Source: an uncultured Bacteroidales bacterium
GTDB lineage: Bacteria > Bacteroidota > Bacteroidia > Bacteroidales > Paludibacteraceae
Assembly: GCA_945787425.1 (NCBI GenBank)
Contig: CALZHO010000021.1
Span: 1 to 10,926, forward strand
Length of the DNA: 10,926 nucleotides
Direction: 5' to 3'
Numbering within the stretch: position 1 is the stretch's first letter; each line of letters starts with the position of its first letter. Shown in pieces: positions 3,045 through 7,755 of this stretch. The notes below the pieces were generated by a model that saw only the letters and a list, made by a program, of their open reading frames with translations, made no database searches and was not told the origin of the DNA. Made by a program: the position numbers and the translations under genes.

Positions 3045-3347
3045 ATGCCTAAGATTTTTGAGTACTTCGGATTTATATTTTTCTTCTACTCCAATGAACA
3101 TGAACCTATTCATGTACATGTAATGCACAACGGATGCCAGAGCATCTTTGAGTTGATTATGATGGATGGAGAATTAGTGGAAATCCGAGTTCGAGAAAAG
3201 GCAGGCGAGGATCCATTGCCAAACAAAGATAAAAAGACTGCCGAAGCATTTATTCGCAAGTATTGCAAGAATATCATTCAAAAATGGGTGAAGTTCTTCG
3301 TGATGAAGCAAGCAGTCAAGAGTACTAACATTAAAACCAAAATATAA
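3045..3347 (+). CDS. DUF4160 domain protein
   Basis: 100 residues from the ATG at 3045. An in-frame ATG lies at 3009, but it sits before the predicted transcription start and overlaps the promoter, so the short form is chosen. Residues 1-30 carry the DUF4160 hallmark: IFEYFGFIFFFYSNEHEPIHVHV, with histidines H19, H23 and H25 in EHEPIHVHV. A mid region ELVEIRVREKAGEDPLP follows, and a basic helical C-terminus (AEAFIRKYCKNIIQKWVKFF). DUF4160 proteins are usually about 80-100 residues. Biochemical function is not established. The gene is followed two bases later by a DUF2442 gene, an arrangement repeatedly seen for these two families, which suggests a shared role, possibly of toxin-antitoxin type (inference from gene pairing only). 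The histidine cluster could bind metal or serve catalysis, which is also inference. Confidence 0.87.
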   Translation: MPKIFEYFGFIFFFYSNEHEPIHVHVMHNGCQSIFELIMMDGELVEIRVREKAGEDPLPNKDKKTAEAFIRKYCKNIIQKWVKFFVMKQAVKSTNIKTKI

Positions 3348-3349
3348 CT

Positions 3350-3601
3350 ATGAGCAAACTTATGATCATCGGAGCTGAGAATCTTGGCAATTCTTCGGTT
3401 CGGTTGTCATTCAATGACAATACAACACAGGTTGTGGATATTGGCAGTTTCATTCGCCGTCATCCACATCCTCAGTACAACAAGTACCTTGAACCACGCC
3501 ATTTCGCAAAGTTCAGTATTGAGAATGGCAATATCGTATGGGGCAAAAACTGGGATCTTATCTTCCCAATAGAACAATTGCACGCAGGTACACTGCAATA
3601 A
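3350..3601 (+). CDS. DUF2442 domain protein
   Basis: 83 residues, starting two bases after the DUF4160 stop, so translation is probably coupled. The fold signature of DUF2442 is visible: an N-terminal strand region (VRLSFNDNTTQVVDI, 17-31), then YLEPRHFAKFSIENGNIVW (46-64) and the closing WGKNWDLIFPIEQL (64-77), which corresponds to the family's typical V-W-x-n-x-x-DL-x-P-E-x-L ending. Small single-domain members of this kind often sit next to DUF4160 genes. No catalytic residue can be assigned. If the pair is a toxin-antitoxin system, I cannot tell from sequence which partner is toxic. A terminator lies 33 bases after the stop, so the operon contains just these two genes. Confidence 0.85.
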   Translation: MSKLMIIGAENLGNSSVRLSFNDNTTQVVDIGSFIRRHPHPQYNKYLEPRHFAKFSIENGNIVWGKNWDLIFPIEQLHAGTLQ

Positions 3602-3670: not shown

Positions 3671-3702
3671 TTTGCTCAATTCAAAATAATTCACTACCTT
3701 TG
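3671..3702 (+). promoter_or_regulatory. Promoter upstream of the rod RNA region
   Basis: TTTG at 3671-3674, 20 bases, TACCTTTG at 3695-3702; it begins right after the terminator. Transcription would start near 3709. The next coding start is 360 bases away, so this promoter makes either a non-coding RNA or a very long leader. Confidence 0.75.
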
Positions 3703-3723
3703 CACCGCAAACTTGGAGTGAAA

Positions 3724-3767
3724 GAACAATATTGAACTACTCTGAACGATGTTGAACAATATTGAAC
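3724..3767 (+). repeat. Five GAAC units at exact 10-base spacing
   Basis: GAAC begins at 3724, 3734, 3744, 3754 and 3764. The first and fourth units are identical (GAACAATATT), the second is GAACTACTCT and the third GAACGATGTT. The array lies about 15 bases after the predicted transcription start, so it would be at the 5' end of the RNA. Confidence 0.75.
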
Positions 3768-3813
3768 CACCGCTCTGCGGCTTTGCAGACATAAATAAAA
3801 GGCGTTTATTGGC

Positions 3814-3990
3814 GCTTGTTTTGGAGCAACGAAATCCGGAAAATTTCTCTAACCCAAAGCAAGAGAGCGGTAAATGCCCCTTGGTGTGTTTAATCCGTTG
3901 TGTCCCACAACGATTAACATATCGGCGTGGGCATTCATTGTTTATTCTTGTTAGTAGGGTCATTCCGGAGCCTCGTTGCTAAGAATAAGC
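3814..3990 (+). ncRNA. Rod-shaped structured RNA, candidate 6S RNA
   Basis: About 177 bases fold back on themselves. The closing stem pairs 3814-3822 with 3982-3990 (two G-T pairs), AGCAACGA (3825-3832) with TCGTTGCT (3973-3980), and TCCGGAA (3835-3841) with TTCCGGA (3963-3969). A loosely paired middle follows (ACCC 3852-3855 with GGGT 3957-3960; CAAGA 3860-3864 with TCTTG 3946-3950; or a local TCTCT/AGAGA hairpin at 3846-3866). Then AATGCCC (3873-3879) pairs with GGGCATT (3929-3935), and an apical hairpin CGTTGT (3896-3901)/ACAACG (3907-3912) has a T/A-rich extension. Rod shape, length and an open centre are the architecture of 6S RNA, which binds RNA polymerase holoenzyme. In the 3' strand of the centre, TATTCTTG (3943-3950) nearly matches the -7 box. 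An A-run/T-run stem at 3991-4012 may be a weak terminator. Alternatively this is a structured leader of the lipoprotein mRNA. Structure: fairly sure; 6S identity: unproven. Confidence 0.5.
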
Positions 3991-4068
3991 AAAAAGAGGT
4001 TCCACGCTTTTTCTATATTATACCAACGGGGTGTTTGGAGCCAACTTCCCACAAGTAAAATTAAACAT

Positions 4069-5019
4069 ATGAAAAAGTTATTATTTATTTTTGCTGCTGC
4101 TTTATTTGTAGCATGTAATCCCATTCCTAAAAAATCAATCTTTGAAGATTTATCTACAGACGAACTGGCTTCTATCATTAAGTCTGATTCTAATTTTACA
4201 GAATTTTATGAAAACATTCATTCACTTGTTAAAATCTCTATGTTTTCTGATATTCAAAAAGCAGAGTACAAAGATGTTACCTATCGTCGTTTATATAAAT
4301 ACTACCATCGTAATAACTTTGAACCTGAGTATTGGCAACCATTAACAGAACAATGGAGCAACGAATGGGACGATACAATGGCTAAAGACCTACTTAAAGT
4401 AGACTCTGTTTCTGCATATTGGGCTGATTATAAGAAACAACACTCATTAAGTAGATTTGCTAAAGTTGAGTTGGCTGACTTTCGTATCACTTATTTTTAT
4501 AGCATGATAGATGATGCCTATATTTGCTTTGATATAACTCCACTACAAGGAACAATAGAGCAAATTAAGTTTACTTGCACATATGGATTTAAAATAGATG
4601 GTGATGATGGTAAAAAAACTTATGCTTATAGATATGCATCGCCAATCACAAAAACTAAAAGAGGTTATTGGGATATAGACTACTTCGAAAGAGATAAATT
4701 CAAAAATATGACCGTCAAGAAATTCTTACAAGAATATGATATGGAAATCGAAGTTACAGATGTTCGCATAGAGGGTAAAAATTATAGTCTTAATGATTTG
4801 AATATTCCTGAAGAGGTTCTAATTTTATGGCAAGAGGACACATCCGAAAATCGTGACGCAGTTGCCTCATTAGTCAATCCAACTTATGTAAATAAAGAGC
4901 AATACATATCCAACAAAAAAACAGAAGATTTGAAAATATTCGACTTACTATGTTATGAATTTAGCGAAGCACTGCTACAGAATAGTTTATTAAATGGATT
5001 TAAGAAAATCTTTGAATAA
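4069..5019 (+). CDS. Unrecognised AT-rich lipoprotein
   Basis: 316 residues from the ATG at 4069. An upstream in-frame ATG at 3976 would add 31 residues encoded by the rod RNA's closing strand and would bury the signal peptide, so it is rejected. MKKLLFIFAAALFVAC is a lipoprotein signal peptide with lipobox FVAC and the lipidated Cys16; Asn follows. The mature part is hydrophilic, rich in aromatic residues and charge, and shows no motif I know: notable segments are RRLYKYYHRNNFEPEYW, a central likely beta-rich region (FKIDGDDGKKTYAYRYASPI) and a helical C-terminus. Base composition is visibly more AT-rich than rnhA, gapA or the right-hand operon. It is followed 16 bases later by a secreted protein gene, so the two probably form one operon. 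No promoter is evident between the rod RNA and the ATG. Function unknown. Confidence 0.8.
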   Translation: MKKLLFIFAAALFVACNPIPKKSIFEDLSTDELASIIKSDSNFTEFYENIHSLVKISMFSDIQKAEYKDVTYRRLYKYYHRNNFEPEYWQPLTEQWSNEWDDTMAKDLLKVDSVSAYWADYKKQHSLSRFAKVELADFRITYFYSMIDDAYICFDITPLQGTIEQIKFTCTYGFKIDGDDGKKTYAYRYASPITKTKRGYWDIDYFERDKFKNMTVKKFLQEYDMEIEVTDVRIEGKNYSLNDLNIPEEVLILWQEDTSENRDAVASLVNPTYVNKEQYISNKKTEDLKIFDLLCYEFSEALLQNSLLNGFKKIFE

Positions 5020-5035
5020 TATAAGACTAATAGAC

Positions 5036-5551
5036 ATGAAGAAGATTGCTATATTTTTGGTTGCAATATTGTTTTCAATGACTATTTTTGCACAAGTAAC
5101 ACCTAAAGAAAAACGTGCAGCTTTCCTTACGCCACCATACTATACAAATTGGATAGGTGCTGATTTTCTTACCATATCAACAGTTGAAGCGGAATTTGAT
5201 GTAACGCCTGCTCAAATAGTAGGGCTAACTTTCTTCTATGACTTTGGAGATTGCTTTGTAGGAATGGAAGCCAATGAGCAAAGTGTTGTAATACAATTAG
5301 CCATTAGACTTTTTAGTGCTCAAGCAACAGGTTTTATACAAAATGCTATTGATTATGGATATGAAATTGTTGACATCGGAGAAAATGTTAACATTAGATT
5401 AAATAATAAAGAAGTGTTTCCTGAGGTGTATGAGAGTGATGTTAAAATATATCGTAAAGTAACAGAAAATGGAAAGGTATATTTGGAAGTGGCAAATAAT
5501 AGCAAGAATATTAATGAATATGAAATAGTGATTTATAGAGCAATGGAGTGA
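5036..5551 (+). CDS. Unrecognised small secreted protein
   Basis: 171 residues from the ATG at 5036, chosen over the in-frame ATG at 4994 because it places a classical signal peptide first (MKKIAIFLVAILFSMTIFAQ, cleavage probably after FAQ) and avoids overlap with the lipoprotein gene. The mature protein begins VTPKEKRAAFLTPPYYTNWI and contains short alternating strands (VEAEFDVTPAQIVGLTFFYDFGDCFVGM; KVYLEVANNSKNINEYEIVIYRAME at the end). I do not recognise a domain. It has the same AT-rich composition as the upstream lipoprotein and follows it by 16 bases, so joint transcription and a joint role in the envelope are likely (inference). There is no obvious terminator straight after it. Confidence 0.75.
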   Translation: MKKIAIFLVAILFSMTIFAQVTPKEKRAAFLTPPYYTNWIGADFLTISTVEAEFDVTPAQIVGLTFFYDFGDCFVGMEANEQSVVIQLAIRLFSAQATGFIQNAIDYGYEIVDIGENVNIRLNNKEVFPEVYESDVKIYRKVTENGKVYLEVANNSKNINEYEIVIYRAME

Positions 5552-7532: not shown

Positions 7533-7755
7533 CTTAAAACTAACTTAATTTTCTTTTTGTAGGCAAAAATGATGCCGTTCCTTCCGTTTTTACTTCTCCA
7601 TTCCCCGTCTTTCCGCCATGAATTACGGTAGATATACGGTAGATACACGGTAGATATACGGTAGATATACGGTAGATAAATATAGTTATACCCTATAACC
7701 ACCATGTAATATACCCTCAACATTCTCCTCTATTTGCTACTTTTTCCGTATTTTA
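7533..7755. other. Gene-free interval with an 11-base tandem array
   Basis: No gene is supported on either strand. The frame open on the minus strand across 7523-7723 just translates the tandem repeat (YIYLPYIYR...). The interval contains the array 7627-7681 and, close after it, an inverted repeat GTTATA-CCC-TATAAC (7685-7699). Confidence 0.6.
7627..7681 (+). repeat. Tandem 11-base repeat, five units
   Basis: GGTAGATATAC begins at 7627, 7649 and 7660 with identical sequence; the unit at 7638 differs by one base (GGTAGATACAC) and the last at 7671 fades out (GGTAGATAAAT). The period is exactly 11. The near-identity of units indicates recent expansion by slippage, so copy number may vary between strains. 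It ends about 75 bases before the promoter of the acyltransferase operon. Confidence 0.92.

Follow-up and report, generated by a model that had tools for sequence, protein, structure and literature searches.

A multi-copy leader RNA family of the Bacteroidota, probably a transcription attenuator, represented upstream of a Paludibacteraceae lipoprotein gene

Introduction

What is the rod-like RNA that appears to be encoded just upstream of a predicted lipoprotein gene in an uncultured Bacteroidales bacterium? The original prediction, made for positions 3814-3990, was that of a 6S RNA whose open centre mimics a promoter, with a leader controlling the lipoprotein gene as the fallback. The window, which is the whole stretch of 10,926 nt that was analysed, consists of one entire contig from a draft genome that comprises 1.34 Mb and is 62% complete. 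All of its features discussed below are given on the forward strand.

The locus

The predicted lipoprotein gene behind the element (4069-5019) encodes 316 residues starting MKKLLFIFAAALFVAC, and a second gene of the presumed transcript (5036-5551) encodes 171 residues with an N-terminal start like that of an exported protein. Neither product has a Pfam match. A likely Bacteroidota promoter lies at 3671-3702, where TTTG (3671-3674) and a -7 box, TACCTTTG (3695-3702), are spaced by 20 nt; this assignment follows the promoter consensus of the phylum. Transcription would likely start a few bases 3' of the -7 box. The sequence TANNTTTG is found within 260 nt upstream of many copies of the element in the same genus, though not all. 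A second copy in the genome of the window itself, at C48:6040-6234, was found with a covariance model (R1, described below).

Just upstream of the leader, positions 3045-3601 encode a DUF4160 protein (PF13711) and then an 83-residue protein, a pair that by eye is toxin-antitoxin-like. Farther downstream, at 7624-7680, there is a short tandem repeat of acggtagatat-like units.

Fold of the element

The segment 3805-4000 has a minimum free energy of -77.4 kcal/mol, whereas 200 dinucleotide-shuffled versions average -46.89 and none is as good (z -6.90). The three distal pairings on which the rod had been based (3814-3822/3982-3990, 3825-3832/3973-3980, and 3835-3841/3963-3969) are present and form part of the minimum-energy fold. 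As limits of the element, 3814-3990 proved too short: a strand at 3797-3805 pairs with 4004-4012, and 4037-4042 pairs with 3998-4003, giving an extent of 3797-4042.

The outermost helix, P0, is formed by its 5' strand AAAAGGCGT (3797-3805) with 4004-4012, as judged from a comparison of pairing within copies and between swapped strands. P1 (3814-3822 with 3982-3990) and the hypervariable P2 (3825-3831 with 3974-3980), whose 3' strands together occupy 3974-3990, are seen both in the minimum-energy fold and in the covariation. Next come hairpin A (3832-3846) and, on the other side, hairpin B (3958-3972, stem GGT/GCC), which presents TTCCGGA (3963-3969) to the loop TCCGGAA (3835-3841) of hairpin A. 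The third of the predicted stems survives as a pairing, which covaries; rather than a plain stem, it is most plausibly a kissing contact made by the loops of two small hairpins. Inside it lie the covarying P4 (3849-3853 with 3950-3954) and an arm with P5, P6 and an apical hairpin (3868-3940).

Homologous copies lend this fold extensive support. In a structure-free MAFFT alignment of 65 copies, mutual information between columns is as high as 1.77 bits with pairing at 100%, and the column pairs with high values belong to P2 (up to 1.77 bits), P4, and the 3835-3841/3963-3969 pairing. A second alignment, fitted to the model and comprising 61 rows from genus to phylum, has 94.0% of its cells paired (67.2% when shuffled) and a covariation of 0.624, against 0.191 when shuffled and 0.05-0.09 for slid versions; these values come from an alignment (A4) that includes two antisense rows (L208 + and L194 +) and from a fitting procedure that favours structure. 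The loop helix has 99.8% of its cells paired, and each of the 42 modelled pairs is seen with both of its bases changed. The stem of hairpin A (xAAA..UUUy) is nearly invariant, so its covariation is weak and the stem rests on complementarity. For the stem pair of hairpin B, the 59 rows that are left without the two antisense rows, which were also omitted for hairpin A, comprise C-G 25, C-A 0, T-A 23, T-G 8, A-G 1, and 2 in which the pair was not found, a switch with a Fisher value of 4e-9. Together, the copies show a conserved, covarying fold: P0 closes it, P1 and P2 follow, hairpins A and B kiss at a four-way junction, and P4, P5, and P6 lie beyond.

Relation to 6S RNA

Two features speak for a 6S RNA acting as a promoter mimic: a rod of about 180 nt and the presence of TATTCTTG in one of its strands. 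The -7 box of the Bacteroidota has the consensus TAnnTTTG. Against this consensus, TATTCTTG at 3943-3950 does match five of the six fixed positions, as had been noted. However, pairing of UCUUG with CAAGA inside the rod explains the sequence, and distant copies do not, by eye, conserve it as a promoter-like box. Nor is there the central bubble that had been proposed, since P4 and the loop-loop helix fill the middle of the rod and make it helical. The 6S models RF00013 and RF01685 match neither the element nor, in a genome that is 62% complete, any other place; among 14 named control genomes, RF00013 matches five and RF01685 none, and a scan of 61 genomes with RF01685 gave matches in six at E up to 0.001, with none above the Rfam cut-off. 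Furthermore, the element is multi-copy, and the genus has a separate 6S-Flavo-like RNA. The covariation among homologues, from which the original prediction had expected support, argues for a different family. That the element is a 6S RNA is thus hardly credible. It resembles 6S RNA (RF00013) and 6S-Flavo (RF01685) in its rod shape and similar length, but differs from both in its lack of a model match, its many copies, its loop-loop pairing, and its tie to downstream genes.

The 6S-Flavo-like RNA is conserved, with one related locus in each of four genomes of the genus (L295, L296, L297, and L299) that scores below the Rfam cut-off, and is likely a true 6S RNA. In Bacteroides, 6S RNA is known (PMC7366714).

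Distribution of the family

Searches with Rfam 15 at E up to 5 matched no family over the element, and no family was matched over the element in 45 other loci. In blastn, 3790-4030 matched 18 of 61 genomes: its own and 17 congeneric ones, with many copies in several of them. A covariance model of 35 genus copies (R1) matches 169 of 178 genus genomes (Paludibacteraceae), including 67 of the 68 good ones, with the training genomes counted in; it also matches 78 of 295 sampled genomes of the order and 21 of 395 of the phylum. A compact model of 28 copies from outside the genus (R2) matches 112 of the 295 genomes (79 of 183 genera) in the order sample and 59 of the 395 (31 of 171 genera) in the phylum sample, figures that include training copies drawn nearly all from these samples and matching by construction. 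Each matching genus genome has 1 to 15 R1 matches, where 15 is the number that was scored; since 6-15 candidates were scored per genome, all copy numbers are minima. R2, run over both strands of 95 loci (293 kb), yielded 97 matches with E no higher than 0.001; each locus contributes one, and the other two are a further copy in L253 and a weak antisense match in L194. The element belongs to a Bacteroidota family of leader RNAs that lacks an Rfam entry.

A pattern scan of named genome contigs found at least 119 stretches, and among the matches listed the titles are those of Paludibacteraceae, Bacteroidales, or Bacteroidia MAGs but for three: one Bacteroidaceae, one Candidatus Colicola, and one Ruminococcus. 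The last of these (L132, on a contig titled uncultured Ruminococcus) reflects either a transfer or a misbinned contig. Named plasmids of Chryseobacterium shandongense and Parabacteroides distasonis (R1, 42.7 and 28.8 bits) and of Rhizosphaericola mali (R2, 84.7 bits) also carry copies, and because of these plasmid examples the range of the family includes Flavobacteriia and Chitinophagia. In one locus, L286, two copies with equal scores lie 1.1 kb apart on one strand (763-898 and 1888-2023). A phage or viral origin was considered and is excluded as far as close relatives are concerned: blastn in phages with the window or with L206 gave no match, and neither did one exact 25-base pattern in viral contigs.

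By title or abstract, no publication that came up in the literature search describes the family. PMC8040213 reports thousands of candidates, among them HMP2_4205, which is 132 bp, palindromic, and found mostly in Bacteroidetes; this may be the same element. According to PMC9723704, Flavo-1 (RF01705) is another multi-copy structured RNA of the Bacteroidota that is sometimes located in 5' regions. Its model has 76 positions; five f124 genomes have 41-126 matches apiece, two f123 genomes have 10 and 0, and five Bacteroidales genomes have none. The family described here is distinct from Flavo-1, as RF01705 has no match in 20 of its loci or over the element in the window.

Gene context

Gene order supports the fallback of the original prediction, in which the element is a leader that controls the lipoprotein gene. 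Of 101 genus copies, 13 have no ORF in the stretch, and in 86 of the other 88 the next ORF (at least 70 residues) has the orientation of the element. In a wider set, placed by model coordinates and reduced from 96 places to 91 distinct copies by dropping five repeats, 4 of the 91 have no ORF, and in 85 of the other 87 the next ORF shares the strand of the element, at a median gap of 92 nt. Upstream ORFs are more mixed, with 63 on the same strand and 28 on the opposite strand for the genus copies and 48 and 38, respectively, for the wider set. The element is placed before a same-strand gene and has a conserved, covarying fold.

By a crude rule, 51 of 85 downstream genes in the wider set have signal-peptide-like starts, compared with 38 of 102 other ORFs (Fisher 0.002); in the genus the count is 61 of 88. 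Beyond this excess there is no clear common theme among the downstream genes, which were named by eye and are diverse: lipoproteins, repeat-rich surface proteins, glycosyltransferase-like proteins, response regulators, and toxin-antitoxin-like proteins. In one Bacteroidales genome (G256), blocks comprising a promoter plus the leader are 83-86% alike and lie before different genes. The ends of some contigs near copies had raised the idea of an invertible promoter; this was set aside, as a similar promoter-plus-leader block in the compared groups can alone explain the breaks.

Four copies (L005, L117, L142, and L180) precede genes whose products have a 'ELQSRREFFKKAAKAALP'-like start, at least two of them cysteine-rich, and by eye these products are peptide-natural-product-like. 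There is also a second class of copies (L012, L037, L085, L133, and similar ones), which mostly lie right behind a same-strand gene. Upstream of the element, this class has short H-type pseudoknot-like modules, e.g. CGUCG-CUUGC-CGACGUUAAACA-GCAAG, in which by eye the loop and tail appear to covary.

The U-tract strand and its partners

The strand GGTTCC-ACGC-TTTTT (3998-4012), which ends in a U-tract, has four rival partners: 3797-3805 in P0, GCGTGG (3925-3930) in the apical arm, 3968-3975, and GGAGCC (4037-4042), which pairs with GGTTCC (3998-4003) to form P7. When the strands of different copies were swapped, with relatedness between copies left in, complementarity to the U-tract strand fell for each of the three partners examined in this way: from 16.2 to 14.5 (sd 0.34; 0/300; 52 copies) for the P0 5' strand, AAAAGGCGU; from 17.8 to 15.9 (sd 0.32; 0/200; 54 copies) for the apical arm with GCGUGG; and from 13.7 to 11.8 (sd 0.29; 0/300; 51 copies) for the P7 strand near the start codon. 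Copies with no recognised U-tract had been dropped (4 of 58 before the apical test, with 3 more before that of P7 and 2 more before that of P0), and in L187 and L189 the U-tract is probably misplaced. Exceptional copies compensate, both in P0 (AGUAGCGU/GCGCUAUU in L216 and GAAAAGACGU/ACGUCUUUUU in L199) and in the apical pairing (GGACGCG with GUUGCGUCC in L212, L215, and L224; AGUGUGG with CCACACUUC in L198). Since ACGC is required for P0 and for the apical pairing alike, the two are mutually exclusive. The strand that ends in the U-tract has several partners that exclude one another, and its complementarity to them is higher within copies than between them.

The remaining partner, 3968-3975, forms with 3996-4003 a local terminator-like hairpin. 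The 45 nt that precede the U-tract have a mean minimum free energy of -9.9 in 96 genus copies (shuffled, -5.6), and in 46 of the 96 five or more of the seven bases next to the U-tract are locally paired. In 44 distant copies the energies are -8.8 and -7.3, a strong local hairpin abuts the U-tract in 19, and z is below -2 in 7. In one genus class the terminator hairpin shares only 2 nt with P1; because of this small overlap, the rod and the terminator are not necessarily alternatives in that class.

Mode of action

With modest confidence, we favour a reading in which the lipoprotein transcript has the element as its 5' leader, a copy of a phylum-wide cis-regulatory family that probably acts as a transcription attenuator. 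The stability and covariation of the fold, the distribution of the family, the same-strand ORF, the alternative helices of the U-tract strand, the local hairpins in the genus, and a close tandem of two copies on one strand (265-395 and 470-606 of L282, also L326) speak for this reading. The many distant copies that have no strong hairpin at the U-tract, the genus class with the 2-nt overlap, and the lack of a clear theme among the downstream genes speak against an attenuator. Attenuation nevertheless appears, from the sequences, to be the likeliest mode for this leader family.

The same observations can be read in other ways. If the transcript usually ended at the U-tract (about 3708-4012), the product would be a free regulatory small RNA that acts in trans or on a protein, with the gene reached by read-through only; the strong, compact fold and the hairpins found directly before the U-tract in 46 of the 96 genus copies would suit this, but it is unlikely, given a pairing partner past the U-tract and near the start codon (P7), the short distance to an ORF that is almost always on the same strand, and the many copies per genome ahead of unrelated genes. 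Those terminator-like hairpins, and a strand whose mutually exclusive partners suggest switching, argue in turn against a constitutive 5' element for mRNA protection or for help with the start of translation, with the U-tract serving as a P0 strand or protein site and not as part of a terminator. Bacteroidota make little use of Shine-Dalgarno sequences, and the covarying helix of P0 with the U-tract, the location of P7 just upstream of the start codon, and the diversity of the genes fit such an element, which we consider slightly less probable again.

Varied genes following a leader RNA near a promoter are also characteristic of put and EAR, which are processive antiterminators. A fold of this type, which would bind RNA polymerase and let it pass the terminators of an operon, accords with the promoters that are often nearby and with the unrelated genes that follow, including surface-polysaccharide-type genes by eye. 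However, no Rfam model matches over the element in the window or in 45 other loci, and this role seems quite improbable. Finally, a dispersed, multi-copy element that occurs on plasmids and within the similar G256 blocks ahead of different genes could be a MITE-like repeat or recombination site, i.e. mobile DNA that folds by accident. The fixed orientation relative to the next gene (86/88 and 85/87) and the compensatory changes throughout make this very improbable.

Under attenuation, the 5' A-rich strand would keep the U-tract strand in P0 as long as the closed fold holds, and polymerase would continue into the gene. Upon loss of the closed fold, the U-tract strand would pair upstream and form an intrinsic terminator. 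P7, near the start codon, would be present in read-through RNA only. A metabolite, a protein, or the ribosome might set the balance. Attenuating riboswitches, such as the purine and SAM types, are comparable in their conserved 5' leader fold, in the alternative helices involving a U-tract, and in that one genome has them before several genes. Loop-loop pairing within the molecule is likewise a feature of purine riboswitches. In contrast to these riboswitches, the element precedes genes that share no clear single pathway and has no Rfam match.

Barcode stems

In the genus, P2 and P4 are nearly randomised between copies that are otherwise much alike. Among 115 distinct genus cores, taken with no identity filter, 37 pairs are 2-5% apart outside these stems, and they differ at 71% of P2 and 51% of P4 positions, against 20% of loop positions and only 5.5% of apical positions. 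P2 is identical in just 1 of the 37 pairs, and it is shared in 5 of 7 pairs that are less than 2% apart. Counted copies had to show P2 complementarity, and therefore both P2 strands change together. The pattern is weaker in three other Bacteroidales genera, where among the closest 15% of pairs P2 differs by 0.34-0.55, compared with 0.16-0.23 elsewhere. Either selection for private stems, or gene conversion that homogenises the remainder while strand-breaking conversions are lost, could account for it. It is possible, though doubtful, that the family consists of phylum-wide, signal-sensing kissing-loop leaders whose private, fast-changing but complementary P2 and P4 stems serve as barcodes, such that each RNA pairs with itself and not with its sisters.

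Significance

If the leader reading is true, a structured leader that lies before many genes in a dominant phylum of the gut and the environment, and that is missing from Rfam 15, would constitute a large uncharted layer of gene control. The contrast between a near-invariant core and randomised stems would provide direct material for ligand or protein hunts. The barcode stems raise a testable question as well, namely by what means the many near-identical folded RNAs of one cell escape mispairing among themselves.
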